Shown here one piece after another: positions 3,001-18,674 of a DNA stretch of 20,535 bases. The notes beneath the pieces are model-generated. The model was not told the origin of the DNA, ran no database searches, and saw nothing but the letters and a program-made list of their open reading frames with translations. The stretch lies in IMG/VR virus record IMGVR_UViG_3300023119_001193, positions 1 to 20,535 of that record; one strand, written 5' to 3'. The position numbers were made by a program, and so were the translations under genes. Source of the DNA: a virus. Position 1 is the first letter of the stretch, and each line of letters begins with the position of its first letter.

Positions 3001-6000
3001 TTAAAATTGCTGCTTTTGTTGCGTTTTCTTGTCCGCCAAATCCTCCATTGTTATATTGTAAAATATAACTATCATAGTATTCGCCTTGAACTTCTGTCGA
3101 AAACTCAGCTCCTCCACGTACAAGATCGTCACAGATTGCATCAATAACTAAACCTACATCTCTTCTACATTTCGAAGCATTGTAATTTAAAACAGTATTA
3201 GCACCGTTGTCGTTAAACACTAATATAGTAGAAAGCAGTCCAGCAAGATTACCATCTATACTTGATTTTGCTGCAAGCAATGCAGAATCACCTGGTGATA
3301 ATAACGGATAATTTTGTGAAGGAATATTTAGTAAGTTGTCATTTTCTATTTGTGTGTATAAAATATTAATATACGCATTTAAAAGTCCCACTTCTGTTGA
3401 TGTAGCAGGGCTATTTGATGTGTTTTGACTTTCGCTATTACCTGTTGTCGGAGTAACACTATTTTCTAAAACAATATCTTCAATTACAGTTTTTAAGTGA
3501 GTTAATGTTTCAAGCGTTTCTTCTCGAGTTGTTATTTCTAATCTAATAACATCAGATATAAAGTAATCTTTTGCAAGTTCGACAATAGCATAATTTCCGC
3601 CATATAGTATATCATGAGTTAATGCGTCAACTATATTTCTATAGTCTCTCAATCTTATATCTTCGTCAATATATTTTCTAGGTGCAATTGATTTTAAATA
3701 CGCTAGTGCTTCTTGTGCAATAAATTCTTTGTTTGCTTGAAGTTGATCTCTAGCATTTTCACTATTTACTGAGCTACCTTCGAAGGTAGTAAATGTGATA
3801 GGATATGTTGCGCCAGTGTCAGTATCCATAACGCCGTTATTAATAATATTAATAATTTCGTCAAACTTAGCATCTGCTAAGTTACCAACATTTGCATATC
3901 CTGAAACAATTGATTTTGCTTCAGTTAATGCTGCTACCCAAATATCTTTCAATTTTTGATCTTTATAGATAGATTTGTCTCTTTGGAATTTTAATCCTAA
4001 TGACGTTGAATGGTATGATGATCTTAAAACAATGTCATATGTAATACCATTTAAAATATTTTCTAAATCTGCACTAAATTGATCTTTATCATAAAGTATG
4101 TCGTTTACATTTTGATTGATGTAATTAATAATTTCTTCTTGGATAAATGCTTTGTTTTCATTAAGAATAGCTGCTGCATTAACATATTCGCCAGCATTTG
4201 TTACTGGAAGTCCAACGTTTAAAGGCTTTTCTGGATTTGACAAATAGTGGAAGCCAAAAAATCCTTGTAACTCGTCTGTTTGGTTATAGAATCTAGCACC
4301 TTTATCTGCAACAGTGATCCCGTCAAAATCTGCATCACGATACATATATGTGTTTGCCCACGGAGATTGTGACACACGTCTCTTAGGTCTTACAATCACA
4401 CGTCTAAATTCGTCACCCTTAATAGACACATTTGCCGAAACTTTAATTGGATAGTCTTCTTCGTACTGTCCTGATTCAACAAAAATTGTAATTTGTTTCT
4501 TATTAACAAAGTTACCGTATTCTAGATCTTCATTAGCGATAAAGTCTTTAGCTTTAAGCAAGTGTACTTCGATAACATCAAAGGTACCTGTGCCGTCTGG
4601 ATTTCCTGGTGCAGCTTTTGCATAATAGTTTACAATTCTACCTTGTGCTTCTGATATTTTACCAACTACTACTTTACCTGGAATAATATCTCTATTTGTA
4701 TCAGTCGCTTGGTCAGTTGATGCATTAGCAGCACCTGGATCAATATAAATGTAATATGTTTTACCAAAGTTCTCAACCTGACCAGCATCAAGTCCTTCAG
4801 TCATAATTTCGATTAATAAGTCAAATTTATCACCAACACCTGTTCTTGCTGGCGCTGTTGCATCTGATACTCCGATAAACTGTTGCTCGTCTGTTTGATA
4901 GAATTGTCCGACAATGCCACCGGAATCATAATCATCTAATACAATAGTATCTACTGGGAATTCTAAATCTTTATCTGTAAAAATCTCAAATTCTGTAGTT
5001 GAAAGTACCTTTACATAATAAAAATTGTCATTAAGTTCAGTTGGACCTACAATACCTTCTGGTTTTATAATGTTACCTGTAATTAATCCATGTGGTGCAG
5101 TTGTAGTAATCTTAGCAATCTGCGCTGACGAAATGTCATCAATTGGTGTTTGGTTAAACGGTCTGTTTAATAGTATTGCTGCAACAACATCTTTAGCATG
5201 TTCAATAGCATCTACAGTTTCAACTACCTGTCTAGTAATAGCAATACGTCCGCTTGCATTTGCATAATAACGTTCGCCTGCTTTCCTTGTTAAGGAGTTA
5301 GCATTGTTTAGTGTATCACTAAAACTTTTAGCTATATCAAACGAAATAGCATCTAATATTAAACCTGTGTCTCTATCACAAGTTTCTATATCGTAATCAA
5401 AATCAGGATATTTAAATGCTAAGTAAGCCCTAACTTCTGCAATAATAAAGTCTCTGTTTGCTTGTATTAAATCTTTTGCAAGTGTAAATTGTGGCAGCGG
5501 ATTGTTAAAGTTTGCTGTGTCAACAACAGCATTATCAACACCGTCATTAATTGTAATTGTTTGGAAGTAAGGACCAGGCTCTGCTTCTGATGCACGTATC
5601 ATTTCTTCAGCTCGTCGAGCTGCGGCATTAATACTTCCGTATGCATAGTTAAATGATGTACCTTCTTTACCTGAAGGCACACCTTTCATAGTATCATCAC
5701 CTTTTGTACTTACAAATAAATTATCTTGTGCTGAATAAGAAGTGTTGTCTACATAATATTTTGTAGCTGCTTGTAATTCTTCTGGAACGTTTGTAAGTCC
5801 TGCAAGTTCACCTGGGCTATCATGTAAAATTAATGGCCCTGACATTTTATCGCCTTGTCTACGAACTGCACTCTTACGTGGTATTGCTTCGTTTGCTAGG
5901 AAAAATCCTTCTAGTGTAGGATCATAACCGGTGTCAACAAATGAGTGTTCATCATCACTAGCAATAATACCTGTAACAAAAATTTTGTTTAATTCTGCAT

Positions 6001-6796
6001 CATTTTGACTTTGTACTTTTGCGTCTTCTCTAGTTTCATGTACACTTAATTGATCTGCTGTAGCATAACGTAAGTAATATACTGTGTTAGTAATAAGTCC
6101 TGTTGGATCATTATCTTCAGCATTAAATCTATATTCAGCGCCATTAATAGTTCTATCAAATCCGTGACTATTAATTACAAGATTACCATTAGCATAAGAA
6201 TCAACAATTAGTGTATACTCTGAAGCATCTGCAGGTTCGTCTTGTAAACGTACTGGCAAATCACCTGCAATATATCTTCCGTCTGCATAGCCTTTTGTAA
6301 TTACAAGATCGTCAATAGTAACACCAGGTAAACCGTGTGCAGAGTTAAATGCATTTACTGCTTCTTGTGATATAGATTGTGAACTTAATGCGATTGGTGT
6401 AATATTAGCATCGCCTTGTCCTCTAGCATCAAGTGGACCGCCAAGTGTCGGAGTCAAGTCTTGGCTTACTTGTCTAAAGTTAGTTCTTAAAATTATCTTA
6501 TCTCTAGAAGGTGTAACGGATATTAAAACACTATCTACATCACTTGGATTTAATGCTGAGTCACTAGCAAATTCTGCTAAATCAAATGCAGTTGCTCCGT
6601 CGTTCACTAACGGAACTGTAGTTGGTATTAAGTTGTCTGGTGTGTCGCCAAGTGTGGTAAAACTAATTTGGCCACCTTCTCCAAATACAGCATAAATCTC
6701 ATTAAAGTTTTCGTTTACTTTACGAAACGATTCACGTATGCTATCACCAGTGCCGTCATTACCCTCAACACCAATATCAATTTCTTGTTTAGCCAT
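1..6796 (-). CDS. Giant virion structural protein (tail fibre/baseplate-like), C-terminus outside window
   Basis: One uninterrupted minus-strand frame runs from an ATG at 6796 to the window edge, at least 2265 residues. I spot-checked the frame at both ends and near residue 1000. A GGAG sits 9 nt before the ATG. The N-terminus has the GNDGTGDSIRESFRKVNENF signature that I associate with structural proteins of marine T4-like phages. Several TK-x-Y-x-D motifs typical of tail-fibre modules occur (ATKYYVD about residue 360, ATKSYVD near the window edge). A segment around residues 765-815 (FVESGQYEEDYPI then VSIKGDEFRRVIVRP) resembles a parallel beta-helix or pectin-lyase rung. Five degenerate copies of a helical motif are spread through the protein. 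It lies 20 nt after the IscA-like gene and probably shares its late promoter. Whether it belongs to tail fibre, baseplate or whisker cannot be decided. Confidence 0.85.
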   Translation of the reverse strand, partial: MAKQEIDIGVEGNDGTGDSIRESFRKVNENFNEIYAVFGEGGQISFTTLGDTPDNLIPTTVPLVNDGATAFDLAEFASDSALNPSDVDSVLISVTPSRDKIILRTNFRQVSQDLTPTLGGPLDARGQGDANITPIALSSQSISQEAVNAFNSAHGLPGVTIDDLVITKGYADGRYIAGDLPVRLQDEPADASEYTLIVDSYANGNLVINSHGFDRTINGAEYRFNAEDNDPTGLITNTVYYLRYATADQLSVHETREDAKVQSQNDAELNKIFVTGIIASDDEHSFVDTGYDPTLEGFFLANEAIPRKSAVRRQGDKMSGPLILHDSPGELAGLTNVPEELQAATKYYVDNTSYSAQDNLFVSTKGDDTMKGVPSGKEGTSFNYAYGSINAAARRAEEMIRASEAEPGPYFQTITINDGVDNAVVDTANFNNPLPQFTLAKDLIQANRDFIIAEVRAYLAFKYPDFDYDIETCDRDTGLILDAISFDIAKSFSDTLNNANSLTRKAGERYYANASGRIAITRQVVETVDAIEHAKDVVAAILLNRPFNQTPIDDISSAQIAKITTTAPHGLITGNIIKPEGIVGPTELNDNFYYVKVLSTTEFEIFTDKDLEFPVDTIVLDDYDSGGIVGQFYQTDEQQFIGVSDATAPARTGVGDKFDLLIEIMTEGLDAGQVENFGKTYYIYIDPGAANASTDQATDTNRDIIPGKVVVGKISEAQGRIVNYYAKAAPGNPDGTGTFDVIEVHLLKAKDFIANEDLEYGNFVNKKQITIFVESGQYEEDYPIKVSANVSIKGDEFRRVIVRPKRRVSQSPWANTYMYRDADFDGITVADKGARFYNQTDELQGFFGFHYLSNPEKPLNVGLPVTNAGEYVNAAAILNENKAFIQEEIINYINQNVNDILYDKDQFSADLENILNGITYDIVLRSSYHSTSLGLKFQRDKSIYKDQKLKDIWVAALTEAKSIVSGYANVGNLADAKFDEIINIINNGVMDTDTGATYPITFTTFEGSSVNSENARDQLQANKEFIAQEALAYLKSIAPRKYIDEDIRLRDYRNIVDALTHDILYGGNYAIVELAKDYFISDVIRLEITTREETLETLTHLKTVIEDIVLENSVTPTTGNSESQNTSNSPATSTEVGLLNAYINILYTQIENDNLLNIPSQNYPLLSPGDSALLAAKSSIDGNLAGLLSTILVFNDNGANTVLNYNASKCRRDVGLVIDAICDDLVRGGAEFSTEVQGEYYDSYILQYNNGGFGGQENATKAAILRIGYVAERLLAGAYDANDILQDPLDSDYEAPDFQYGTGEVNSNNIVNTLLDKIVFAFDVNYNPPKRNDEMDAFLMNDATILRNLTVQGHGGFLLVLDPDGQILTKSPYIQTGSSFSKSKGNQKIFGGGMFVDAYAGNLPVYVPETIDPTGEGSPESGKTNNFEIWVRSEEGQGLFIRQPQLPCPFYVEGRRFQVNAISDYSQANGWCKLYLDVTSNSGAGYDETQFEENRGNIGRTIYLQTAGNRSMLGNDFTQINDLGYGLVTNNGAFSEMVSMFTYYCQAAYYAKNGSEIRSLNGSNGYGNFGLVAEGADPNEIPDQVSYGYDMVFPGKAITYNNSGTNTNLQGAIQIALTDCKFPPLPNAIIQIDHGGAIGVLRYSIGAVARTSQVATGGVYNDDVYLLQLTGTTNGENGEFFNTLQDTLADGTYVEFRSSETHIFDKVRDKGNIVERPSTAVNFDETDDITYRSVSFSGTNNFGDDLGTTSVQTTFNQPYDFIELYTDSTNLGGGQGGAQGDTSIAILINGDDVPDFNAVIEERITRDIYGNQPPGVTLYPNAHDLIARNLRYVQEEVVAFVNTLPGFAGTYDERKCYRDTGLIVRGVAMDLLYGGNANTVQNANKYYVGTVLQLPDDGSQTAETIAAIDKAKEIIESYILPRVAWSTANANGYTQDTTGSAAEAGAATSAATLFDIVSDGIGDVTTIPTLANTTGYAGGMIFTYEGRTHQIVGYTDLGSTDPSGNGQGLLSIDPMPVADLTAGGTGLSTGILTNDKILYAGLPIDSTAEITVKISLCRATGHDFTQIGTGSFNDSNYPNVILGDPVNDLAPFYSDTPNATSAQVWERRKGRVFWMSTDQYGFFRVGQFFAVDQAQGKITFSGEIGITGATELGFRKGVTVDEFSIDDEMVDESDSAVPVESAIVKYINKRLGRTKTDQLVPPGDRLGPGFLPLSGSAAMENDLDMGGFQIKQLATPTSNTDAATKSYVDTQLLANDSFDSLRETP
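1140..5430 (-). repeat. Five degenerate protein-level repeats inside the giant structural protein
   Basis: A motif of about 40-50 residues recurs in the translated structural protein. Its core is (K/T)C-x-RD-x-GLI-x-DAI-x-x-D(I/L), often followed by YGGN and a polar helix ending in a Tyr pair. Approximate places are 5270-5430 (ETCDRDTGLILDAISFDI), 3990-4100 (weak, ENILNGITYDIV), 3570-3680 (RLRDYRNIVDALTHDILYGG), 3075-3195 (SKCRRDVGLVIDAICDDL) and 1140-1265 (RKCYRDTGLIVRGVAMDLL). Each copy is usually preceded by a helix reading like 'N(K/R)-x-F-I-x-x-E'. The repeat is visible in protein, not as identical DNA. Its function is unknown; a repeated helical structural module is the simplest reading. 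Confidence 0.65.
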
Positions 6797-6816
6797 TTAA
6801 ATTTGCTCCAGTTATA

Positions 6817-7173
6817 TTATAATGGAATAGTATCCATATTAAAGTTTACGCTAACACCACATCCACATGCAGATTGCGCATTAGGATTTCTAATTTCAAA
6901 AGTAGATCCTATTATGCTTTTTGTGTAATCTATTTCAGTTCCGATTAAGAACATAATTGAATGCTTTCCTATTACAAAATAAGAATCATTGTCAGTTTTT
7001 AATATTTCGTCACCTTCTTCTATTTCTTCAGGAGACATTATCATGCCCCAATCATATTCGAATCCGGCACATCCTCCGCCTTTAATGTTTAAAGTAATTG
7101 CATGGCACGAATGTTCTGTGCAAAGTGCGTCAATTTGTGTTTTTGCAGCGTTAGTTAGTGTACAAATATCCAT
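6817..7173 (-). CDS. IscA/HesB-like A-type iron-sulfur carrier
   Basis: A 118-residue protein with the full A-type carrier pattern: a conserved Cys in GGGCAGFEY (Cys35) and the C-terminal pair in SACGCGVS (Cys103, Cys105). In this family the three cysteines bind a [2Fe-2S] or [4Fe-4S] cluster, or iron, for delivery to apoproteins. The length matches the family (about 105-120). The start at 7173 is supported by AAGGA about 10 nt upstream and a late promoter box GATAAATA at 7194-7201. The gene ends 20 nt before the giant structural gene, so the two are probably one late transcript. Clients in the window could be the radical SAM protein, or the carrier may serve host enzymes. Subfamily (IscA, SufA, ErpA) is not resolved. 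Confidence 0.9.
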   Translation of the reverse strand: MDICTLTNAAKTQIDALCTEHSCHAITLNIKGGGCAGFEYDWGMIMSPEEIEEGDEILKTDNDSYFVIGKHSIMFLIGTEIDYTKSIIGSTFEIRNPNAQSACGCGVSVNFNMDTIPL

Positions 7174-7193
7174 ATTTTGTCATTCCTTACAGT

Positions 7194-7201
7194 TATTTAT
7201 C
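7194..7201 (-). promoter_or_regulatory. Late promoter box GATAAATA for the IscA-like and giant structural genes
   Basis: GATAAATA on the minus strand matches the T4 late consensus TATAAATA at seven of eight positions. With T4 spacing the transcript would start near 7188, leaving a leader of about 15 nt that contains AAGGA before the IscA ATG. No other obvious promoter precedes the structural gene, so both genes probably depend on it. Confidence 0.6.
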
Positions 7202-7221
7202 GTATGATTTTATAATCTTAA

Positions 7222-7229
7222 TGTAAATA
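7222..7229 (+). promoter_or_regulatory. Late-like box TGTAAATA directly before the zinc-ribbon gene
   Basis: TGTAAATA resembles the T4 late box TATAAATA (one mismatch). If the box spans -13 to -6 as in T4, the start of transcription falls at 7235, exactly the A of the ATG. The same ten-base string ATGTAAATAT stands at the same distance before the plus-strand gene at 7956. No ribosome binding site is present. Confidence 0.45.
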
Positions 7230-7234
7230 TAGTT

Positions 7235-7522
7235 ATGTATATAAAAGAATATAAGGTTAAAACCAGGCATACAAGGGTTAGTAAAACCGGCAAGGAACAC
7301 CTCTACAAGCGTGAATTAACTATGTGTGTGTTTAGATGTGATAATTGTGATATAGAATTCGAACGTCCTAGAGGAAATATAGACCCTAAACGTCTATCAA
7401 ACTCTTATTTTCATGTTTGTAGTAACTGTGATAGCAAGAAATTTGCACAAAAAAAGGGAGTAGAACAAAAGCAAAAATGGAAATTATCTGCTAGTTCTGA
7501 TCTCCCAATTAGTAAACTTTAA
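7235..7522 (+). CDS. Small zinc-ribbon protein of unknown role
   Basis: A basic 95-residue protein with two CxxC knuckles (Cys35-Cys38 in FRCDNCDIEF and Cys62-Cys65 in HVCSNCDSKK), spaced as in a zinc ribbon. The N-terminal 28 residues are rich in Lys and Arg, and the C-terminal tail is polar. This suggests a nucleic-acid or protein binding adaptor, but no family name can be given. It is one of only three plus-strand genes in the window. The ATG has no Shine-Dalgarno sequence and is preceded by a TGTAAATA box. An internal Met at residue 30 is a possible alternative start that would keep the zinc site. Its stop codon overlaps the stop of the convergent gene. Confidence 0.75.
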   Translation: MYIKEYKVKTRHTRVSKTGKEHLYKRELTMCVFRCDNCDIEFERPRGNIDPKRLSNSYFHVCSNCDSKKFAQKKGVEQKQKWKLSASSDLPISKL

Positions 7523-7755
7523 ATACTAAGTTCTTTTAACAAACGATCTTTCATATTTTCGTCAATACAAACTACACCCTTAACTGGCATAGGTCTACCA
7601 TAAACTTCAAGAAGTTTTTTAACATAACCCTGTACATCTTCCGGGTTTCTTGAGCTTATAATACACTCTTCGTAACTTGAAAATTGCGGTTCGGTAAACA
7701 AGTAAACTGGGTATTGTTCCCATTCCATAAAAAGAATGACTAAAAACCAGCTCAT
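7519..7755 (-). CDS. Small hypothetical protein with hydrophobic N-terminus
   Basis: A 78-residue protein beginning MSWFLVILFMEW, a short hydrophobic stretch, followed by an acidic domain with one Cys (YEECIISSRN) and ending in VVCIDENMKDRLLKEL. I do not recognise a named family; short proteins with this layout occur in marine T4-like phages and may be membrane-anchored. The ATG at 7755 is chosen because it overlaps the TGA of the upstream gene (ATGA), which suggests translational coupling. A longer form from a TTG at 7776 is possible. The gene shares the late promoter at 7937-7944 with its upstream neighbour. Confidence 0.7.
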   Translation of the reverse strand: MSWFLVILFMEWEQYPVYLFTEPQFSSYEECIISSRNPEDVQGYVKKLLEVYGRPMPVKGVVCIDENMKDRLLKELSI

Positions 7756-7916
7756 TCCTTTTTCCAAATAGTCCAAGCACCGTAAGCAATCGCGCCATAC
7801 GCTGCTAGAGCTGCAATAGGTTTAAAAATTAAGAATGAAACGCCTGCTGCAACTAGAATAACACCATCTAGTGTAGTACGCTCTTTCAAACGAGAATTAA
7901 TCCATTTCTGTATCAT
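7752..7916 (-). CDS. Small membrane protein (54 aa)
   Basis: Translation of the minus strand gives a 54-residue protein with a basic N-terminus (MIQKWINSRLKERTTLDG), a long hydrophobic and alanine-rich stretch at about residues 18-48, and a basic end (WKKE). It therefore looks like a small inner-membrane protein, possibly a tight hairpin. The start is well supported: AAGGAG lies 7 nt before the ATG and a late box CATAAATA lies about 20 nt upstream. The stop overlaps the start of the next gene. Function unknown; late expression makes a role in virion release or membrane remodelling possible, but nothing in the sequence proves it. Confidence 0.8.
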   Translation of the reverse strand: MIQKWINSRLKERTTLDGVILVAAGVSFLIFKPIAALAAYGAIAYGAWTIWKKE

Positions 7917-7936
7917 AATGTTTCTCCTTGTAAAAT

Positions 7937-7944
7937 TATTTATG
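7937..7944 (-). promoter_or_regulatory. Late promoter box CATAAATA for the small membrane protein pair
   Basis: CATAAATA on the minus strand differs from TATAAATA only at the first base. The predicted start near 7931 gives a leader of about 15 nt carrying AAGGAG. The box overlaps a plus-strand TGTAAATA by two bases, forming the inverted repeat TATTTA-TG-TAAATA. Confidence 0.6.
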
Positions 7945-7950
7945 TAAATA
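7943..7950 (+). promoter_or_regulatory. Late-like box TGTAAATA directly before the oxygenase-like gene
   Basis: TGTAAATA with T4 late geometry predicts transcription starting at 7956, exactly the A of the downstream ATG. This is the same arrangement as before the gene at 7235. There is no Shine-Dalgarno sequence. Confidence 0.45.
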
Positions 7951-7955
7951 TCTGT

Positions 7956-8540
7956 ATGTCAAAACTAGTAGCTTATCCGATGTTTGTTTCTCCTTTATGG
8001 ATTATGACATATGACTCGCATAAAGACGAACAACAGTCATATATAGATTACATTGAAGAAACAGATAGAGAAACATATAACAAAGGCTTTCTCACTGAAG
8101 GAGAATTGCATAATAAAACACTATTCCAACCTTTAGTAGAAACTATATCTTTAATATCAAACACACTAATAGAAACCTGGGAACTAGAACCGCATATGAC
8201 GCAACTAGGAATACAACAAATGTGGGGTAGTTGTACAATGCCCGGCGGATTGCTAATGCCTGTAGAAGTTCCTAATTCTTTTGCAACAGGCATGTATTTT
8301 GTTAAAACACCGCCCAATAGTGGTAATCTTTTAATAGATAATCCTAATAACAATATAAGTTATTATTCAAAAATGCACAGAAAAGAAGCAAACGAATTTA
8401 ATGTTGAAAAGTTTGAAACTGTAACCCCTGAAGGAGATATTATTGTATATCCTGGAAATTTGAAGTCTATGCAAACTACTAATGAAAATATTAACGAAAA
8501 TAGATATGTAATTTATTTTAGTTTAGCCTTTGTTAATTGA
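7956..8540 (+). CDS. 2OG-Fe(II) oxygenase-like protein lacking the metal ligands (probable pseudoenzyme)
   Basis: A 194-residue protein whose overall pattern recalls the phage 2OG-Fe(II) oxygenase family (TIGR02466 type): an early SPLW, a mid-protein PNSFATGMYFVKTP followed by NSGNLLIDNP, then GDIIVYPGNL and a closing RYVIYFSLAFVN. In active members the text before PNS contains HxH or HxD and a further His follows the 'FPs.L' strand. Here those positions read V103-E104-V105 and S171, so all the expected iron ligands appear absent, while the late Arg (R183) that binds 2-oxoglutarate is kept. The alignment is from memory. A binding or scaffold role is more likely than catalysis. The last 28 nt overlap the convergent glycosyltransferase-like gene. 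Confidence 0.7.
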   Translation: MSKLVAYPMFVSPLWIMTYDSHKDEQQSYIDYIEETDRETYNKGFLTEGELHNKTLFQPLVETISLISNTLIETWELEPHMTQLGIQQMWGSCTMPGGLLMPVEVPNSFATGMYFVKTPPNSGNLLIDNPNNNISYYSKMHRKEANEFNVEKFETVTPEGDIIVYPGNLKSMQTTNENINENRYVIYFSLAFVN

Positions 8541-9592
8541 TCCATTAATTCTGTTGGTCCATAACGTAAATTTATATCTTTGTATAAATTGTGGTTATAT
8601 TCTAATAATGGCAGCATGTCTTGATATATTTTGTGATGTTCGTCAATAGTTTTTTCTGCTAATCTATCAATTTGTTCTTTAATAGAATTAAAACGTTTGT
8701 GGTGATCAGTAATAGTATCATAAGATTCGTCTATATAATTATCAAATGTTTTAAACCCAAAACTTTTTAAAGATTCAAGAGTAAACGGTAGTCCTACAAC
8801 TATAAATGGATGATAAAATAAAAACGATTTTAAAACTTTTTCAGTCCAGCCAACATAAACGTCAGAATAAAAATCACGTTCGCCGATTAAACTCCAATAG
8901 CTGTTTTGATAGAATGTGCTAGGGTCGGGTAGATGCTTTACATTATTTGTATCATCTAGTCTTAAAGGTAAAATTTCTGTTAGGGTATTAATTTCTTTAG
9001 GAGTTAGCAACTCTAAATTATCTTCTAATATGTCATTATTTTCTATATTGTGTAATTCTATATAATCGCAACTAACTATAGATTTTTCTAATAAATCTTT
9101 TTCAGCTAGATAACTTACTAATTTTAATCTGTGTGTCCTTGTCTGTCTGTTTAACGATAAAAATATATTTTCTCTTTTTTCTAGATTAACACTAAACGGG
9201 TTTTGTACTTTAATATTGTCGTAATCTTTATAGAGTAAATGAAAACTAAAGAAGTAAACATTATTACCAAATAAATTTTCATTGCTAGAACAAATAGCGT
9301 AATCTATACCTAGAGATATTATATAATCTACTTGTTCTTGTGTTAGCAATCCTTCATATGTGTCGTCTACCACTAAAAAGTCGTTAGGCTTAAACTCGAT
9401 ACTTTTTAGTCTATCAAAATTTAATCCTACATTTTCAAAAAACAAAATACTGTTATCGCTTATGTTGTCTTCATACAAAAAGTTTATAGTCTTTAAGAAA
9501 CTCCAGAGGCGAGATGATGTTATACCTTTTGACGGTATTAGTCCTTTTCGCAATACTTTAATCGGTGCCGGCGGCTTATAAATGTTCTTCAT
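8513..9592 (-). CDS. Glycosyltransferase-like protein (GT10/GT47-type C-terminal domain)
   Basis: A 359-residue protein. The middle carries a basic FLSLNRQTRTHR (about 144-155). The C-terminal half has WTEKVLKSFLFYHPFIVVG (about 249-267) followed by LESLKSFGFKTF and IDESYD (to about 292). The 'TEK...PfIv.G...lk..GF.TF...iDESYD' series is what I associate with GT-B-fold fucosyltransferase or exostosin-like domains in phages, where the Glu of TEK contacts the sugar nucleotide. The donor cannot be predicted. The start is firm: AAAGG lies 8 nt before the ATG. It overlaps the radical SAM gene by 17 nt and is the last gene of the six-gene operon, so it may attach or use the product of that pathway. 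Confidence 0.7.
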   Translation of the reverse strand: MKNIYKPPAPIKVLRKGLIPSKGITSSRLWSFLKTINFLYEDNISDNSILFFENVGLNFDRLKSIEFKPNDFLVVDDTYEGLLTQEQVDYIISLGIDYAICSSNENLFGNNVYFFSFHLLYKDYDNIKVQNPFSVNLEKRENIFLSLNRQTRTHRLKLVSYLAEKDLLEKSIVSCDYIELHNIENNDILEDNLELLTPKEINTLTEILPLRLDDTNNVKHLPDPSTFYQNSYWSLIGERDFYSDVYVGWTEKVLKSFLFYHPFIVVGLPFTLESLKSFGFKTFDNYIDESYDTITDHHKRFNSIKEQIDRLAEKTIDEHHKIYQDMLPLLEYNHNLYKDINLRYGPTELMDQLTKAKLK

Positions 9593-10451
9593 GAATTTTA
9601 CCTTTCAACAATGCTTCTTGCTGAGGTTTTAATTTTGGATTTGCAGGACACATTGCACAAATAGGATGTGGTTCAAAAATATTTGTTACAAACCCTTGCA
9701 GTTCGTATTCACTGCAATCTATAGCTAGTCCTTTATATTTTAAATATTCTGTCCAATCATCGTCTGCATCTAACCCGTATTTTTTAGCATGTGTTTCTAG
9801 CATACTAATAGGAGGACATTTGTATAAACGATTTTTATAAATTATAGGATAGATATTTGCACTACATTTTGAATAACTGCTCTGTGGATCATTATCATTC
9901 CACGGTTTTAACACACCATTAATGTTGCGTCTATAATCATACCATCCACCTTGTGTAGGATCTGTTACTTCGAGTTCAACATCTTGATATCGCCATATAT
10001 TATTAGGTTCTAGTTTCCACTCTAAATCTCTAATAATATGTGTCCTAATATTATCTTCAATTTTTTGTCTTATAGTAGGATTGGTATTATGAAATGTAAT
10101 ACTAAGTTTTGCAGGTTGTATATCTAATAGTACTTCTAACAGATTATTTCTTTTTGGTAAGAAAAATCCATTTGAATATACTTCTATTCTAGCATGATCA
10201 AAACATGTTCTGCTGTGTTTTAATATGTCATATATTTTAGGATGGATTAAAGGTTCTCCACCTATAATAGTAAAATTATCAGGATCAAGACGCTTACTCC
10301 AAGAAAACATATTTTCTTTAAGTTCTTCAAACTCTTCATGCCATGGATGGTCGTAATCAATAAAACGATCACAACCAGGACAAGCTAAATCGCAACTGGT
10401 TGTGATCATCCATTCTAGAAACGGTAAATGAAATCCTCTTTCATCAATCAA
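9576..10451 (-). CDS. Radical SAM protein with C-terminal cysteine cluster
   Basis: A 291-residue radical SAM enzyme. The [4Fe-4S] signature CxxxCxxC is present in SCDLACPGCDRF (Cys20, Cys24, Cys27), followed by the SAM-binding GGEP motif at residues 64-67. The C-terminal part has further cysteines (SKCSANIYP, YKCPPISM, CSEYEL, PICAMCPANP) that could hold an auxiliary cluster like a SPASM or twitch domain. Such enzymes perform radical chemistry on peptides, sugars or small molecules; the substrate is not visible. The start is TTG at 10451, overlapping the amidinotransferase stop by 8 nt; starting at the later Met15 would cut the first beta strand. Its clusters could be supplied by the phage IscA-like carrier. 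Confidence 0.88.
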   Translation of the reverse strand: MIDERGFHLPFLEWMITTSCDLACPGCDRFIDYDHPWHEEFEELKENMFSWSKRLDPDNFTIIGGEPLIHPKIYDILKHSRTCFDHARIEVYSNGFFLPKRNNLLEVLLDIQPAKLSITFHNTNPTIRQKIEDNIRTHIIRDLEWKLEPNNIWRYQDVELEVTDPTQGGWYDYRRNINGVLKPWNDNDPQSSYSKCSANIYPIIYKNRLYKCPPISMLETHAKKYGLDADDDWTEYLKYKGLAIDCSEYELQGFVTNIFEPHPICAMCPANPKLKPQQEALLKGKIHEEHL

Positions 10452-11508
10452 AATAGTTTTCCAAAGAGCCTTTGCGCTTTGTATCTAGTGTTACACAATG
10501 GAACCCTCCGCTTAGTGTACGTGCTTGGCGCATCGGTAAGCCGATAGTTTCAATGCCATGTTTATTAAGTTCGCGACGAACATAGTCTTGATTTTCATCA
10601 ATAATAACTAGTTCTTCGTTAACACTTAGCATGTTCAACCCAATATACTTAGAGCAAGGACTTACGTTACCTTCTAAATTAGATCCAATATCTACAACTT
10701 CGTCTCCTGGGATATAAATTTTATCCCAGTCTTTAAAGATTGGAGGATACCAGTCTGGCGTACAACGATCGCCATTAAACAAAACTAGTCCAGGACGAAG
10801 TGGAATAACAGTTGAGTCAAAGTGAGAATAACTGTAAAACTTTTCAGCTAGATGTATACGATAGCCTCTTGGTTCTAGTATGCTTTTAAGCCATTTATAT
10901 CCCCACATATTTCCTGAGTTAGAAACTTGATAAAGTAAATCTTTTCCAAGTCTTACTACGTTTGGAGCATCAAATACTACTTCTTCATTTGTAAGTGTAG
11001 GAATGCTTAGATCGTCTAATTGATAACTGTCATCTAACAATCTCGGGCGCGGCGCTGCAATCCATTCTGTTCCCATTTCCATTACTTCATACATAAAATA
11101 ACGATATGCTAATGTTTCATACTGCCTTGCTCTCATTGCACCGGGACAATCGATAATTAAATTATCTAAAGGTAACAACAAATCACGTGGACAATATGTG
11201 TACCATCCTGTTGTTTTCCAATCAGGAGACGAAAATTCTTTAGAATGATCAATCGCATGTGGACGTCTTACTTTAACTCCTAGCCCTTCTAGTGTTTTTG
11301 AAAGTCCGTCTAAATCTTCATTAGCTTCGTCAACTACCCATTGGGGCGATGGTCCTTCTAAATCTTTAATTTGCTCGTAGGTACAGTCTGCAAAACCAAA
11401 ACTGTGAGTTGATTTATCAACTGTTGGAATACGTGCATGATCTGCAATACCTACAAAAATTTCTTCTAGTGGATCCCAGTCATTATGACTGCTTACTATA
11501 GATGCCAT
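10444..11508 (-). CDS. Amidinotransferase (arginine:glycine / inosamine amidinotransferase family)
   Basis: A 354-residue protein, near full length for the family. It has the family landmarks in order: WDPLEEIFVG at the N-terminus, a substrate-loop region IIDCPGAMRARQYE (about 118-131), FDAPNVVRLG (Asp180), SHFDST with the catalytic His229, and the nucleophilic Cys338 in SGGFHCVTLD. Enzymes of this family move the amidino group of L-arginine to an amine acceptor through a covalent Cys intermediate, releasing ornithine and a guanidino product (for example guanidinoacetate, or guanidino-inositols in streptomycin biosynthesis). All catalytic residues appear intact. A strong AGGAGAG lies 7 nt before the ATG. 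It follows the PLP enzyme with a 26-nt overlap, which suggests that the acceptor amine may be made by that neighbour. Confidence 0.88.
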   Translation of the reverse strand: MASIVSSHNDWDPLEEIFVGIADHARIPTVDKSTHSFGFADCTYEQIKDLEGPSPQWVVDEANEDLDGLSKTLEGLGVKVRRPHAIDHSKEFSSPDWKTTGWYTYCPRDLLLPLDNLIIDCPGAMRARQYETLAYRYFMYEVMEMGTEWIAAPRPRLLDDSYQLDDLSIPTLTNEEVVFDAPNVVRLGKDLLYQVSNSGNMWGYKWLKSILEPRGYRIHLAEKFYSYSHFDSTVIPLRPGLVLFNGDRCTPDWYPPIFKDWDKIYIPGDEVVDIGSNLEGNVSPCSKYIGLNMLSVNEELVIIDENQDYVRRELNKHGIETIGLPMRQARTLSGGFHCVTLDTKRKGSLENYFD

Positions 11509-12364
11509 TTAATTTCTCTCCTATTAATTCTGACACACATACTCTATTAACTTCTGTGCCTCTGTTCATCATTTCCCATTCATCACCGCCTAATCCAAAC
11601 ATAATACAATCAGTACTGTTTAAATCATTTTCTACACAAACATCTAGGTAAGTCCGCTCATGTGTATTCCAATTATAATCTATACTAAATTTGTTAATTA
11701 AGCTATTAGCAATACTTAACGAAACACGGTTATGCATATCTACAGAATTGAATACATCTACTCCGTCATCGGTGTCTGTGCGTTCTAAACGCATACCTAC
11801 TCGTAAAAATTCTGCACCATAAAATGCTTTTGAAATACTAAATGTTACAGTTTCTACACACTTGTATTTTGTTAAGTCTAAGTTAATGTTTTTAGTACAA
11901 GGATAATACGCAAAATCTAATAATACAGGTATACCTAAAACATCACAGTTAACTAATACATTCTCTAAATCTTCGTGTTGTCTGCCATAGTCCGAAAAGG
12001 GAACACTAATAATTACAGCATCGTTAGTCTGCAATTTTCTATCGTTAATGTAAGCCCATAAGCCTCCATGTTTTAATACTGCACTATGATACATAAATTC
12101 GCCACGGAAAAATCTAAATGTTCTGTTCTTGTGACGCCAATACCAATGATCAAATGCTTGTGCTGATCCTGCAACTAGTTTACGATTTGTAAAAAGTTCT
12201 AACCCTTTTAAATCATTTAGTTTACTAGAGTTAATCCAATTAAAATAATTTTCTGTAAATTCAGCTGGTATATTACTGTTGTATAAATCGCTAGTAGGAT
12301 CCAGATTTTGTATAAAATCTTTTATGTTAGGATCTACTAAAGGTTTAGCTCCTCTTAAATTCAT
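11483..12364 (-). CDS. PLP-dependent aminotransferase-fold protein, short form
   Basis: A 293-residue protein with the core of a fold-type I PLP enzyme: a strand-turn VIISVPFSDYG (about 117-127), IPVLLDFAYYP with the Asp (D150) that would pair with the pyridine nitrogen and a nearby Tyr, and FSISKAFYGAEFLRVGM with the presumed Schiff-base lysine K179 and phosphate-binding Ser and Arg around it. Class I/II aminotransferases are usually about 380-420 residues, so this protein is short, mainly in the N-terminal segment and C-terminal small domain. It may be a minimal aminotransferase, a related lyase or decarboxylase, or a weakly active form. GGAG lies 6 nt before the ATG. It overlaps both neighbours in the operon by 20-26 nt. 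Confidence 0.68.
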   Translation of the reverse strand: MNLRGAKPLVDPNIKDFIQNLDPTSDLYNSNIPAEFTENYFNWINSSKLNDLKGLELFTNRKLVAGSAQAFDHWYWRHKNRTFRFFRGEFMYHSAVLKHGGLWAYINDRKLQTNDAVIISVPFSDYGRQHEDLENVLVNCDVLGIPVLLDFAYYPCTKNINLDLTKYKCVETVTFSISKAFYGAEFLRVGMRLERTDTDDGVDVFNSVDMHNRVSLSIANSLINKFSIDYNWNTHERTYLDVCVENDLNSTDCIMFGLGGDEWEMMNRGTEVNRVCVSELIGEKLNGIYSKQS

Positions 12365-12863
12365 CTATTACTCCGGTTACTTGCATGGTATATTTGTTCG
12401 TCATGCCCATATTGCCGCTGAGATGCGGTTCATTACATTTTATTATTATAGCATCACCTTGCTTCCAATGCAAGACCGAATTTTCATTTATTTCAAAATA
12501 ATGACCACTTTGCCAGTCTTCTAAAAAAATGTTTACCCTACAACAACTACTTGGTTCTACATTATTATTTTTTGCAAATTGAAAAAATGTATCAGTGTGT
12601 ACTGGAAGTGTTTGTCCAGGGGGCTGTTTCATAATGCCAACGCTGTATCTTGGAAATAGTGTACGACAAAAATCATGCACAGCGCCATCTACTTCAAAAT
12701 TTCTATAATACATAGAATTTTGAGATGTGTATCCTGCTTCTACATTTTTAACATTTTGATCTTCGAAACTATTTGAACGTCCAAGAATAGTTACGTTGTC
12801 TTCTATAATCCATTTATAGTTTTTATAGTTAAAATCTGGTAAGTCGAAATTTATTTTTCCCAT
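12345..12863 (-). CDS. Fe(II)/2OG oxygenase- or aspartyl hydroxylase-like protein
   Basis: A 172-residue double-stranded beta-helix protein. The iron-binding triad is visible as HTD (His89, Asp91) in LPVHTDTFFQF and His147 in NEPHLSGNMG, preceded by NIFLEDWQSGHYFEI and the strand HWKQGDAIII. This order fits a small Fe(II)/2-oxoglutarate hydroxylase. The substrate is unknown. The ATG has no clear Shine-Dalgarno sequence and lies inside the last codons of the upstream oxygenase gene (13-nt overlap), so it is probably translationally coupled. It overlaps the aminotransferase-like gene by 20 nt. Confidence 0.78.
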   Translation of the reverse strand: MGKINFDLPDFNYKNYKWIIEDNVTILGRSNSFEDQNVKNVEAGYTSQNSMYYRNFEVDGAVHDFCRTLFPRYSVGIMKQPPGQTLPVHTDTFFQFAKNNNVEPSSCCRVNIFLEDWQSGHYFEINENSVLHWKQGDAIIIKCNEPHLSGNMGMTNKYTMQVTGVIDEFKRS

Positions 12864-13606
12864 GGCTTGTCGTACGGGACGCCTTCTTCGTTATCAAACC
12901 AGTATAAACTACGATGTGGAGGAAATTTATCATCGTGTTGTGCGTTGCTTACATAATAAAATAATCTTAAATTTTTACGAGAAACACCTGCAGGAGTTTT
13001 CATAGGCTCTGGATATCCGTGAAATGCTAGATTATCGTAACTCCACACCACAAGATTACCGGCACCTGGAACTACGCTACTAATAATATTTTTTCTGTCT
13101 GTATCATAAAAATCTAAACTACCACCCCAAGCCTTTTTCCAATTTTCGTTTAAATAGATTATAACACTTAGCCGACGATGTAATCTTAATTGTTCATTCC
13201 AATTAAAGTCAGTATGCACTTTTAGACTGTCACCGTTAAACGCTTTAGCATATCCTGCACCGACTAAGTGCGGATCAGGTATTAGGTCAACAGTATCGGT
13301 TACTGCTTGTAACCATTTTAAAAAAGTAGAACTGTGTAATGTGTGTACTACTTCGTCTTGTACAGGAGTTACATCTAAATCGTTGTACTCATACATACAA
13401 CTACCTTTTCGAGTAAACTTTTTACCTTGTTCTAAAGGAAGTTTTTCTAGTTCTTCTGCCATTTGATGTACAACATTAATTGGCAAAAAGTTTTTAATTT
13501 CTAATTTACTATATCCGGGATGACTTCTATATTCACGTTGTAGTTCGTATGTATTTGAAAACTGTTTGTGAATATGATTCAAAATTTGGTTTTTAATACG
13601 TGTCAA
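12851..13606 (-). CDS. 2OG-Fe(II) oxygenase (prolyl 4-hydroxylase-like)
   Basis: A 251-residue protein with a complete prolyl-4-hydroxylase-type core: KVHTDFNW (His131, Asp133), RLSVIIYLNENWKKAWGG, a second-strand GAGNLVVWSY, the distal His196 in AFHGYPEP, and an Arg (R210) 14 residues later that fits 2-oxoglutarate binding. Phage members of this family hydroxylate proteins or small molecules; the target here is unknown. It is the first gene of the six-gene minus-strand operon. The start is TTG at 13606: AAGGA lies 7 nt upstream and an in-frame TAA stands just before it, so a longer form is impossible. No consensus sigma70 or clear late promoter precedes it on this strand. Confidence 0.88.
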   Translation of the reverse strand: MTRIKNQILNHIHKQFSNTYELQREYRSHPGYSKLEIKNFLPINVVHQMAEELEKLPLEQGKKFTRKGSCMYEYNDLDVTPVQDEVVHTLHSSTFLKWLQAVTDTVDLIPDPHLVGAGYAKAFNGDSLKVHTDFNWNEQLRLHRRLSVIIYLNENWKKAWGGSLDFYDTDRKNIISSVVPGAGNLVVWSYDNLAFHGYPEPMKTPAGVSRKNLRLFYYVSNAQHDDKFPPHRSLYWFDNEEGVPYDKPWEK

Positions 13607-13632
13607 ATTTTAATCCTTTGTATTATTACTCG

Positions 13633-13640
13633 TATAAATA
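13633..13640 (+). promoter_or_regulatory. Late promoter box TATAAATA for the HeH-like gene
   Basis: A perfect T4 late consensus TATAAATA. The predicted start of transcription is near 13646, followed by a strong ribosome site AAGGAGGA and the ATG at 13665. It is the clearest late promoter of the window and supports reading the weaker boxes the same way. Confidence 0.75.
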
Positions 13641-13664
13641 ATTATTCCTTAAGGAGGATATATT

Positions 13665-13913
13665 ATGTTAAATTGGTTAAAACGTATTTTAGGAATTGGA
13701 CCTTCATTGCCAGCGGCTGTAGAAGCTGCTATTCCGGCACCAGAAGAGAAGCCAAAACCTAAAGCCAAGAAAACTACAACAAAAAAGTCACAAGCGGTAG
13801 ATTTAAAAGGTATGTCAAAGAATGACTTGTTAGCTCATGCTAAAAAGAATGGAATTAAAGCCAACGCTAGTATGAAGAAAGCAGATATCTTAGCCGCGAT
13901 TAACAACAGCTGA
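13665..13913 (+). CDS. Small basic protein with HeH/SAP-like C-terminal domain
   Basis: An 82-residue protein in three parts: an amphipathic start (MLNWLKRILGIGP), a Pro/Ala/Lys-rich linker (about 20-45), and a C-terminal helix-extended loop-helix motif (GMSKNDLLAHAKKNGIKANA, then KKADILAAIN) like SAP, HeH or Rho N-terminal domains that bind nucleic acid. It is therefore probably a small DNA- or RNA-binding protein, perhaps packaged or associated with late functions. It has the best translation signal of the window (AAGGAGGA, about 7 nt spacing) and a perfect late promoter, so high late expression is expected. Its last 24 nt overlap the convergent coiled-coil gene. Confidence 0.85.
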   Translation: MLNWLKRILGIGPSLPAAVEAAIPAPEEKPKPKAKKTTTKKSQAVDLKGMSKNDLLAHAKKNGIKANASMKKADILAAINNS

Positions 13914-14180
13914 TTGTAATTGTTGTAATGCAGTATCTAAGCGAGTTAGCTTTCGCTCTAAAACAGTGATAGCGGCTCGCTGTTTTCTTGACTGCTCTTC
14001 CAAACTACGCACATACTCTAATGTCGGAAGTTCACGGCTTGTCCCATCTTCGCTTACCATAGTAAGCGTATCTACACCTTGTGCCTTTAAGCCACCAGTT
14101 ACACGATTAGGATTTTTATCAGATAATGATTGGGTCTGGGCCGGCTTGTTTCTGCCGTACATCTTGTTTAGATAGCTCAT
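13890..14180 (-). CDS. Small coiled-coil protein, probably late
   Basis: A 96-residue protein. The N-terminal part (MSYLNKMYGRNKP, then VTGGLKAQGVDTLTMVSEDG) looks like the start of a small structural protein and the C-terminal half is a predicted coiled coil with heptads (EEQSRKQRAAITVLERKLTR and following). I do not know a named function. The ATG at 14180 is chosen over an upstream start at 14216 because the upstream start would lie before the late box at 14201-14208, and GGAGAG lies 7-8 nt before 14180. The start lies inside the end of the uvdE gene (62-nt overlap), so this gene has its own promoter within uvdE. Confidence 0.78.
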   Translation of the reverse strand: MSYLNKMYGRNKPAQTQSLSDKNPNRVTGGLKAQGVDTLTMVSEDGTSRELPTLEYVRSLEEQSRKQRAAITVLERKLTRLDTALQQLQSAVVNRG

Positions 14181-15246
14181 AGTGTTTTCTCTCCATATTG
14201 TATTTATGTAGTGCAATACTTGCTAAATTCTTGCACTTTGACTCTACCATAATATCTGCATAGTCTAAAAACTCTAATGCCCAGTCGTTAACAGCCCGGT
14301 TCCACATGTAATCACTGTGAGCTCGTAGTTTTGCTTTTTTGTATCCTTGCTCTAGTAAATTTGCCATGTTAGGCTTATGTCCTTTTGCAAAGTTAACCAG
14401 CACATCTTCTCTGCTGACACTGTAGTGAATAACAGGACGCACACCACGCCAACTGTCAATCACGCGAGCAAATCTATCGTCGGTGGGCTGAATGTATTCT
14501 CCTTCACGGCACCAGTGATGGTGTATGTCAAGAACGAGTGCGCAGTGGTCGACAAGTTCGAGGCTGTGTTCGAGCCCCCATTTGTTTTCGTCGTTCTCGA
14601 TCGTGATGGTGTTTCGTGCTTCGGGCGAGAGTCTCTTGAGGGCGTCTTTGATGCCTTGTGGACCTCTTCGACCCGATATGTGTACATTGCATTTAAAGTC
14701 TTGATATGTGCGGCCGTATCCCATCCAGCGCAAGACATCGGTGTGATATTCAAATTCTTCTATGCTCCTATCAACTATTTCCTCATTATCCGAAGCAAGG
14801 ACTGTAAATTGTCCTGGGTGCATGGAGAGTCTAACATCCAAGCGTCTGGCTGTGTCTCCGACTTTGGCAAACTCTCTTTCCGCATAATCACGTACATCTT
14901 GACGGCGCCAAAAATAGCACCAAGTAGGCTCGGTATAAACAGGAAGAACATCAGAGCCCAATCGTACCATACGTAACTCTTGAGGAAGGCTTCCAACATA
15001 CTCAATCAATCTCCCATAGCTTGCAATATTATGTACCATAATATCCCACAAGCGTTCTTCAGCAACATCACGTGTCTGTCTGTTCAGCCACTGTACTGTT
15101 GTGCTACGAGTATTTAGCGGTCGCTGTATTTCCTCTAGTAACTTTTTCTTCTGTGTTTGATCAGGATGCATATACTTACATGCAAAGCCAATGCGTTGTT
15201 GTTGTGCCTTCAAGAAATCACCTGCTGTTGTAAATTTTAAGTCCAT
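14119..15246 (-). CDS. uvdE: UV damage endonuclease UvdE
   Basis: A 375-residue TIM-barrel endonuclease that nicks DNA 5' to pyrimidine dimers and other lesions. Visible family features are RIGFACKYM near the N-terminus, RLGSDVLPVY, the metal-site strand LSMHPGQFTVLAS, EEFEYHTDVLRWMG, CNVHISGRRG, ITIENDENKWG, LVLDIHHHWC and PVIHYSVSR, which supply the His, Glu and Asp ligands for the metal cluster. Length fits (about 300-400). The ATG lies 5 nt after the -10 element of a perfect sigma70 promoter, so the mRNA may be leaderless, and I see no Shine-Dalgarno. The middle of the gene is clearly GC-richer than its neighbours. Early expression fits a repair role in sunlit water. Confidence 0.92.
   Translation of the reverse strand: MDLKFTTAGDFLKAQQQRIGFACKYMHPDQTQKKKLLEEIQRPLNTRSTTVQWLNRQTRDVAEERLWDIMVHNIASYGRLIEYVGSLPQELRMVRLGSDVLPVYTEPTWCYFWRRQDVRDYAEREFAKVGDTARRLDVRLSMHPGQFTVLASDNEEIVDRSIEEFEYHTDVLRWMGYGRTYQDFKCNVHISGRRGPQGIKDALKRLSPEARNTITIENDENKWGLEHSLELVDHCALVLDIHHHWCREGEYIQPTDDRFARVIDSWRGVRPVIHYSVSREDVLVNFAKGHKPNMANLLEQGYKKAKLRAHSDYMWNRAVNDWALEFLDYADIMVESKCKNLASIALHKYNMERKHYELSKQDVRQKQAGPDPIII
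14201..14208 (-). promoter_or_regulatory. Late promoter box CATAAATA inside uvdE
   Basis: CATAAATA on the minus strand, with predicted transcription start near 14195 and GGAGAG before the ATG at 14180. It lies within the uvdE coding region and would express the coiled-coil gene separately late in infection. Confidence 0.55.
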
Positions 15247-15251
15247 AGTTT

Positions 15252-15280
15252 ATTATACTGCCTTTTTTGTATTGTGTCAA
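15252..15280 (-). promoter_or_regulatory. Consensus sigma70 promoter for uvdE
   Basis: Minus strand: TTGACA at 15275-15280, exactly 17 bp, then TATAAT at 15252-15257. All twelve consensus bases match. The usual start position falls at 15245-15246, which is the uvdE ATG, so the transcript is predicted to be leaderless or nearly so. It would be read by unmodified host RNA polymerase, indicating early expression. Confidence 0.85.
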
Positions 15281-16105
15281 TCATTTCCAATTATCTCTAA
15301 CCCAAGGATCATCACAGTTTTCAGGATTAGGATCTCCGTGAAATACACATATACAGCAATCATTAGGAGGAACTACATTCTCAACAATTCTCAGTTTACG
15401 AGTTCCCCTTGGCATGCTATATCTTAAATCTTTATTTTTTCGTATTTCCCATTTCCAACTTTTAATCCATTCATCTGGAAACAAACAAGCAGGCATACTT
15501 TTATGTGTAGCATCATATAGCCAGTCTTGATCTCCGTGAAACTTGCGTTCTATTAACAATCTATTTTGTTTGAATCCTTCCCAAAAATGATTCATTGTTC
15601 CGTATTTAAATCTGACTACACTGCTGTTATACTTTTCCCATTGCGGACGCATCTTTCGAGTAAAGTCTCTTATTGTACACCATCTGTCTGTGTTGTAAAG
15701 AAATAACTTGTCTATGCTACCTGATATAACTACATCTAAGTCGATATATAGTATTGTTCCTTTGAGCCCAAGCTCATTTGAAAATATGTAAGGTTTGCAC
15801 CACCAACCGTTTAATTCTTCAGGTAATGGTATTGTTGTAATATTGTCGTTAAGGTTAGAAGGATCTTCGGTTAAACAAACAAACTCTATATCAAGTGAAC
15901 AATATCTGTTTACCATACTATAGAGCTTGTTTACGTAATCTGCAGAATATTTTGTGCCGTGTTTTAGACATAACACATAGTATTTTTCATCCACACTTTC
16001 TTGCGGCAAATTTTCGTGAGTTTCCGCACTTTTCTGCGCTTTCTCTAGAGCTTTACGTGCTTTACGTTGTTCTTTTGTTTCGCCGTCAACATACTTCTTA
16101 ACCAA
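15281..16105 (-). CDS. GT-A glycosyltransferase-like protein (GT8-like)
   Basis: A protein of about 274 residues. After a basic, probably helical N-terminus (about 40 residues) it has YYVLCLKHGTKYSADYV, IEFVCLTEDP, WWCKPYIFS and then the metal/sugar-nucleotide DxD in ILYIDLDVVISG (about residues 122 and 124), later NSSVVRF, FHGDQDW and VFHGDPNPENC near the C-terminus. The order fits a GT8-like retaining glycosyltransferase and its closing HG-x-P. The acceptor is unknown. The chosen start is a TTG 2 nt after the queD stop with GAGG 6 nt upstream; a GTG at 16147 would extend it by 14 residues inside queD. Confidence 0.78.
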   Translation of the reverse strand: MVKKYVDGETKEQRKARKALEKAQKSAETHENLPQESVDEKYYVLCLKHGTKYSADYVNKLYSMVNRYCSLDIEFVCLTEDPSNLNDNITTIPLPEELNGWWCKPYIFSNELGLKGTILYIDLDVVISGSIDKLFLYNTDRWCTIRDFTRKMRPQWEKYNSSVVRFKYGTMNHFWEGFKQNRLLIERKFHGDQDWLYDATHKSMPACLFPDEWIKSWKWEIRKNKDLRYSMPRGTRKLRIVENVVPPNDCCICVFHGDPNPENCDDPWVRDNWK

Positions 16106-16106
16106 A

Positions 16107-16556: not shown

Positions 16557-16620
16557 AATTATCTCCTATAAGTATGGCGGCAGAATTAGAAGGGATGACG
16601 CCAAGACCTGTTGTATTCAT
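16540..16620 (-). CDS. Possible 26-aa leader peptide overlapping the queD start
   Basis: An ATG at 16620, 7 nt after the -10 of a perfect sigma70 promoter, opens a 26-codon frame (MNTTGLGVIPSNSAAILIGD and six more residues) that ends inside queD at 16540-16542. It would be translated from an almost leaderless mRNA and runs over the queD ribosome site, so it could couple or regulate queD translation. The composition looks protein-like, but the frame is short and could be chance. Confidence 0.35.
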   Translation of the reverse strand: MNTTGLGVIPSNSAAILIGDNYGKTL

Positions 16621-18666: not shown

Positions 18667-18674
18667 TATTTATC
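18667..18674 (-). promoter_or_regulatory. Late promoter box GATAAATA for the fibre-like gene
   Basis: GATAAATA on the minus strand, with predicted start near 18661 and a leader of about 19 nt. The box overlaps the last two bases of the upstream gene, so late transcription of the fibre-like gene is separate from the early-type gene before it. Confidence 0.6.

Follow-up and report, generated by a model that had tools for sequence, protein, structure and literature searches.

What would a marine phage make with an amidinotransferase, an aminotransferase-like protein, a radical S-adenosylmethionine (SAM) enzyme, two oxygenases and a glycosyltransferase-like protein that are all encoded in one run of overlapping genes? 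The window analysed here is the complete 20,535-bp IMG/VR fragment IMGVR_UViG_3300023119_001193, from an uncultivated marine T4-like virus of bacteria. Six open reading frames (ORFs) occupy positions 8513–13606 of its minus strand and overlap successively by 17, 8, 26, 20 and 13 nt, in agreement with the coordinates and the 8–26 nt overlaps of a preliminary description of this DNA. The first gene of the operon is OGa (12851–13606, −), a prolyl-4-hydroxylase-like Fe(II)/2-oxoglutarate (2OG) oxygenase. It is followed by OGb (12345–12863, −), which resembles Fe(II)/2OG oxygenases, PLP (11483–12364, −), a compact aminotransferase-like protein of the pyridoxal phosphate fold type I, AGAT (10444–11508, −), a StrB1-like amidinotransferase of the L-arginine type, rSAM (9576–10451, −), a radical SAM enzyme, and GTx (8513–9592, −), which resembles glycosyltransferases of the GT-B fold. 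Our answer, held with about even confidence, is a phage glycan-tailoring cassette that makes a guanidinylated unit and attaches it to the phage tail or to a host surface glycan.

Recurrence of the cassette across phages

A scan of viral contigs was started from AGAT, and 80 of its 215 relatives were fetched and dereplicated to 38 lineages. In 36 of them PLP shares the strand of AGAT and lies upstream of it by no more than 2.6 kb, and OGb is present in 34; OGa, rSAM and GTx are each nearby in 18–19. A second scan, started from PLP to lessen the bias of the AGAT start (80 of 345 relatives fetched, 37 lineages), returned AGAT in 28 lineages and OGb beside PLP in 30, immediately upstream in 27. 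The co-occurrence in both scans defines OGb–PLP–AGAT as the core of the cassette. OGb often stays with PLP also where AGAT is absent. Overlaps alone would be insufficient to argue for a unit since they are common in phages; it is the gene order kept across deeply diverged phages that excludes chance. Homologues that occur only singly, which the preliminary description had named as the finding that would speak against it, are not what the scans returned, and its claim that the six genes form one unit is borne out.

The 3′ part of the cassette is variable. The window has rSAM and GTx in this place, lineage L003 has an additional radical SAM enzyme of an N-terminal-twitch type, and only this type follows AGAT in L008, L009 and L016; in some copies rSAM is replaced or missing. 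We propose that rSAM and GTx are a swappable delivery part beside the OGb–PLP–AGAT core. Compared with the nearest relative, L002, the ratio of nonsynonymous to synonymous substitution rates ranges from 0.035 (AGAT) to 0.26 (OGb), which places the cassette genes under purifying selection. Catalytic residues are retained, and judged by their sequences the cassette enzymes look intact.

A scan of genome contigs for a bacterial origin retrieved only the 3.7-kb contig NZ_PXVC01000123.1 (L085) of Synechococcus lacustris, with the gene content PLP–AGAT–OGb–OGb–epimerase, which is possibly phage DNA inside a bacterial assembly. Among 386 cyanobacterial genomes, only that of S. lacustris has the PLP family. 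Apart from this one contig, a recent cellular donor was found neither in the genome-contig scan nor in these 386 genomes.

Predicted activities of the cassette enzymes

AGAT aligns over 350 residues with StrB1 of streptomycin biosynthesis (PDB entry 1bwd, E 3.7e-94), which outranks HsvA, SxtG and human AGAT among the solved relatives. The protein stays below the Pfam ADI cut-off (PF02274, 12.3 versus 22.8 bits), the homology to StrB1 being far stronger, and it belongs to the phage family PHROG_25854 (E 2.7e-33), whose function is listed as unknown. From the catalytic Asp/His/Cys triad, H229 and C338 are found in 23/23 AGAT sequences and D180 in 22/23, with a Glu in the remaining one. AGAT is thus predicted to be an arginine amidinotransferase of the AGAT/StrB1 superfamily. 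In the tree, phage AGATs form a separate clade (100/100) and StrB1 pairs instead with a cyanobacterial protein (99/96). The AGAT of the cultured cyanophage S-SCSM2R groups with the second AGAT of lineage L078 in another phage clade; amidinotransferases of at least two lineages thus occur in phages. In L078, a stretch of about 13 kb (2316–15650) combines two amidinotransferases that fall into different clades with two GTx copies and several radical SAM genes. The flap of AGAT reads FYSYSH in the window and FYSFAH in others. It has the same length as LYASTH of StrB1 and is shorter than in three other cyanobacterial amidinotransferases (L184–L186). According to the literature, the flap influences substrate binding in AGAT, CyrA and AmtA, and a short flap fits, weakly, an acceptor bulkier than glycine. 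For a StrB1-like cyanobacterial gene (L196), a glycan setting is not evident.

An amidinotransferase could also act in auxiliary metabolism, for host arginine and ornithine or for creatine-type compounds, with its neighbours unrelated. An ocean survey did report the creatine-pathway gene GAMT in viruses (PMC11360552). AGAT, however, is nearly always found in an ordered set with PLP and OGb, its flap is short and StrB1-like, and no GAMT-like gene was identified among the Pfam-scanned window genes. We consider such a role highly improbable.

PLP has 293 residues and matches no Pfam family, PF00155 included. The best PDB matches of its AlphaFold model (pLDDT 92.3) are HisC structures, with E 1e-12 and a template-modelling (TM) score of ~0.6. 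All 36 PLP sequences compared, the most distant at 28% identity, share K179, D150, Y153, S176, S178, R188 and R274. We take these residues to be the lysine that carries the cofactor, the aspartate at its N1, the tyrosine at its O3, the groups that bind its phosphate and, in R274, the carboxylate-binding arginine. Model and conserved residues together point to a fold-type-I class I/II aminotransferase. The preliminary description had also allowed for inactive active sites in AGAT and PLP; the catalytic residues of both are kept down to about 28% identity. Profiles of PLP, GTx and OGb searched against PDB sequences gave nothing usable.

OGa matches PF13640 (E 4.4e-15), and its H131, D133, H196 and R210/R214 are invariant across 19 relatives. 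OGb has 172 residues and a weak PhyH match (E 0.04), with an iron triad, H89-x-D91...H147, that is invariant across 29 relatives. Both would therefore be Fe(II)/2OG oxygenases by their HxD...H triad. In the VioC/VioD and OrfP/OrfR systems, arginine is hydroxylated by a 2OG oxygenase and then cyclised by a class I/II PLP enzyme. By this precedent the product of the cassette might be a guanidino compound, free or of amino-acid type and for instance hydroxylated or cyclic, that serves as an effector or as a modifier of peptides or proteins, and not a glycan unit. A class I/II, HisC-like PLP with an invariant C-terminal Arg would suit such a product, and so would the similarity of OGa to peptide and prolyl hydroxylases. 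OGb–PLP is in addition the most constant pair, also without AGAT, as is expected for host arginine as substrate. However, arginine as the substrate would leave AGAT superfluous, OGb has no sequence match to a VioC-type structure, and the neighbours are glycosyltransferases and sugar-nucleotide enzymes. An amino-acid-type product is, in our judgement, rather unlikely.

rSAM matches PF04055 (E 1.2e-9). Seven Cys residues are invariant in 23 sequences, C20/C24/C27 of the CX3CX2C motif and C196/C212/C265/C268 in the C-terminal part. The order of the latter, C-X15-C-gap-C-X2-C, follows the twitch motif CX9-15GX4C-gap-CX2C (PMC6231123), with the motif Gly replaced by Asn in the window copy. This four-Cys pattern is of the type described for fully ligated auxiliary clusters, among them those of BtrN, the radical SAM dehydrogenase of butirosin biosynthesis, in which the motif accompanies alcohol-to-ketone oxidation. 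rSAM shares with BtrN this motif and an aminotransferase close by. It is a distant match (E 0.0014), though, and the nearest PDB entry is another radical SAM protein, 7wzv (E 1.4e-12).

GTx has no Pfam match. Its model (pLDDT 81) retrieves GT-B structures in Foldseek, with SdgB first (E 2e-4, TM ~0.4) and then SenB, MurG, T4 beta-glucosyltransferase (rank 14) and GtfC. The protein matches a family of uncultured-phage proteins down to E 1e-16, one member of which has a UDP-glucose/GDP-mannose dehydrogenase domain. Viral relatives that bear the name of a glycosyl- or fucosyltransferase, among them a fucosyltransferase-C-domain protein, come lower in the list, and E251-K252 is invariant. GTx is probably a glycosyltransferase. 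Family and structure searches support the other five enzyme assignments of the preliminary description; for its glycosyltransferase they provide a moderate fold match.

That description had also counted DNA among the possible attachment targets, and the T4 beta-glucosyltransferase among the GT-B matches agrees with a phage DNA hypermodified with a guanidino group. Radical SAM and PLP enzymes belong to known thymidine hypermodification pathways. A PF00303 protein (thymidylate-synthase/hydroxymethylase family) is encoded on the carrier contig G013. This is one of 18 carriers, many of which are fragments; PF00303 is absent from the 343-kb and the 110-kb contig, and the cassette sits among tail genes and sugar enzymes. 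DNA as the target is weakened by these results, and we give it only a very slight chance.

Genomic setting of the cassette and its relatives

The PLP relatives without AGAT (L144–L150, L152–L157), most of which retain OGb, are surrounded by sugar-nucleotide epimerases and dehydratases (Epimerase/GDP_Man_Dehyd), UDP-sugar dehydrogenase (UDPG_MGDP_dh), DegT aminotransferase, a cytidylyltransferase–mannose-phosphate-isomerase fusion (CTP_transf + MannoseP_isomer), a thiamine-diphosphate enzyme, carbamoyltransferases and GTx copies. A carbamoyltransferase is also found just upstream of OGa in L017-type copies. Proteins of the Epimerase family (short-chain dehydrogenases/reductases of sugar-epimerase type) account for 7/140 dereplicated neighbour proteins versus 1/140 controls, which were taken from distant parts of eight carrier contigs. 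The sugar-nucleotide enzymes and glycosyltransferases beside the PLP relatives indicate that the setting is glycan chemistry. Near the cassette of L017, a gene at 15108–16592 resembles FAD-dependent tryptophan halogenases. A PF04820 match occurs in the neighbour sample as well, and one of the genes near the S-SCSM2R AGAT is named PrnA.

The ORF at 2–6796 (−) of the window, with 2265 residues and open at the contig end, encodes a tail-fibre-like protein that we read as a tail fibre from its sequence, and its nearness would place the cassette in a host-recognition region. Tail-fibre homologues also adjoin the cassette in L002–L005, L008, L009 and L016. With such a location, the enzymes might modify the tail fibre directly: rSAM and the 2OG oxygenases would alter side chains, AGAT would guanidinylate a protein amine and GTx would glycosylate. 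The first structural match of GTx, SdgB, and the weaker one, GtfC, both glycosylate adhesin proteins, and a second, N-terminal-twitch radical SAM gene is found near many cassette copies, which is in line with direct modification. Against this, the acceptors of known amidinotransferases are small amines, the relatives sit among sugar-nucleotide enzymes and the structural matches are moderate. Direct modification of the fibre is decidedly unlikely.

A gp23-type capsid protein is encoded in 5/18 carrier contigs, which identifies these carriers as T4-like; the window is without the capsid region. The gp23 of carrier G005, the one capsid compared, is 72–77% identical to those of the jumbo phages Phosso, Vibrio 2.275 and PA5oct. 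In the window, the gene at 18673–19974 has its best matches in PA5oct-type phages. A comparison of the tail DNA with cultured phages found no nearest cultured phage.

At the end of the operon and convergent with GTx, a third 2OG oxygenase, OGc (7956–8540, +), is TIGR02466-like and matches PF13759 (E 1.4e-6) and PHROG_81 (E 3.5e-13). Diverged copies of it lie near the cassette in many relatives; whether OGc belongs to the same unit as the operon is uncertain. Between the tail-fibre-like gene and the cassette, an IscA-like iron–sulphur protein (PF01521) is encoded at 6817–7173 (−), which could supply clusters to rSAM. At the other end, OGa starts with TTG and has the Shine–Dalgarno-like AAAGGA 7 nt ahead. 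The T4-type late-promoter consensus TATAAATA is found at 13633–13640 (+), where a short gap precedes the operon. It lies ahead of a Rho_N-domain gene (13665–13913, +), and sites of this kind are no more numerous in the window than chance predicts; the promoter scan of the window is overall at chance level. Two perfect TTGACA-17-TATAAT sites are present further on. One, at 15280–15252, is just upstream of the gene for a UV-damage endonuclease, UvdE (14119–15246, −; PF03851, E 1.6e-37), and the other, at 16656–16628, is ahead of a PTPS/QueD-like gene (16107–16556). The genes at 15281–16147 (−) and 16622–17218 (−) encode a PHROG_1962 glycosyltransferase-like protein and a PHROG_30607 protein, respectively. 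PHROG_30607 has no assigned function, and diverged copies of it occur near AGAT also in L051 and L074.

Related systems and a possible route

Guanidinylation of a sugar-type molecule is most familiar from the antibiotic streptomycin. In streptomycin biosynthesis the aminotransferase StsC is followed by the inosamine-phosphate amidinotransferase StrB1, and an amine made by a PLP enzyme accepts the amidino group. The preliminary description drew its analogy from this pathway. What stands of it is that StrB1 is the best solved relative of AGAT, aligned over the full length and alike in catalytic triad and short flap, and that PLP lies upstream. What does not stand is orthology of the two enzymes and a common type of aminotransferase, which is of the DegT/StrS type in streptomycin and class I/II and HisC-like in the window. 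Unlike in streptomycin, phage AGATs have a clade of their own, and 2OG and radical SAM enzymes are added.

The same description knew of no phage pathway of this composition. This is partly right. Modules of radical SAM and amidinotransferase genes, arranged as interchangeable blocks, were reported in 2010 from the Campylobacter phages CP220 and CPt10 (PMC2853527). These blocks are likewise swappable and near baseplate genes, and the CP220 block is also found with nucleotide-diphospho-sugar-transferase domains. They differ by five radical SAM genes per module, an AGAT only 26–27% identical and no recognised OGb–PLP core. Beside the CPt10 block (L083), a gene at 14818–15510 (−) encodes a 230-residue protein that resembles class I/II aminotransferases (PF00155, E 3.7e-5). 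A related cassette exists in S-SCSM2R, which has one run of DegT, rSAM, GT, OGb, AGAT and GT2/GT7C genes, with an AGAT 39% and an rSAM 27% identical to the window proteins. In place of the HisC-like PLP it has a mini-DegT (motif SFQYKK...GRGG), and its AGAT is of the other phage clade. The window PLP could not be shown to be homologous to this mini-DegT or to the small aminotransferase of CPt10. Since related AGATs are accompanied by two PLP enzymes that are unrelated to each other, the conserved need may be the supply of an amine to AGAT. The hypervariable host-recognition cluster of pelagimyophages carries glycosyltransferases and radical SAM cassettes (PMC7029224). This island, known from pelagimyophages and cyanomyophages, lies beside tail fibres, a position like that of the window cassette; in contrast, amidinotransferase and aminotransferase are mentioned zero times in PMC7029224. 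In the open-access literature, neither the OGb–PLP–AGAT core nor a guanidinylated phage glycan was found described.

For glycan tailoring we can sketch the following route. OGb, the BtrN-like rSAM or both would oxidise a hydroxyl or carbon of a sugar-, cyclitol- or amino-acid-like precursor, and PLP would convert the resulting carbonyl to an amine with a glutamate-type donor. AGAT would transfer the amidino group of L-arginine to this amine, yielding a guanidine and ornithine. OGa would then hydroxylate, and GTx, as a GT-B-type enzyme, would move the unit onto a glycan or a virion tail protein.

Several points weigh against this glycan-tailoring route. The tree puts phage AGATs outside the StrB1 clade. 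R274 of PLP is at the carboxylate-binding place of amino-acid aminotransferases, and a HisC-like enzyme fits an amino-acid substrate too. The GT-B assignment of GTx is made at a TM score of only ~0.4, and the window yielded neither a kinase nor a sugar-nucleotide synthase. The counts for the glycan enrichment are small, though in the same direction, and the proximity to tail fibres fits a virion target and does not show one. To be noted, we infer the substrates of all cassette enzymes, the order of the steps, the product and the choice between fibre and host surface. The observation in the preliminary description is confirmed and is stronger than stated; its interpretation is plausible, with support for parts of it. 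The more specific possibility that marine T4-like jumbo phages make a new guanidino sugar or cyclitol by an oxidise–aminate–guanidinylate route and mount it on tail fibres or the host surface is put forward only tentatively.

If true, this would be the first virus-made guanidinylated glycan. A charged group would be added to viral or host glycans, giving a cationic surface for receptor binding or for exclusion of superinfection. Antibiotic-style guanidinylation would then be a recurring, swappable part of the host-recognition region of phages, which would suggest a reason for the crowding of radical SAM and 2OG enzymes in phage tail regions, and the compact amidinotransferases and aminotransferases would be a resource. 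With a cousin cassette in the cultured cyanophage S-SCSM2R, the hypothesis is testable now.

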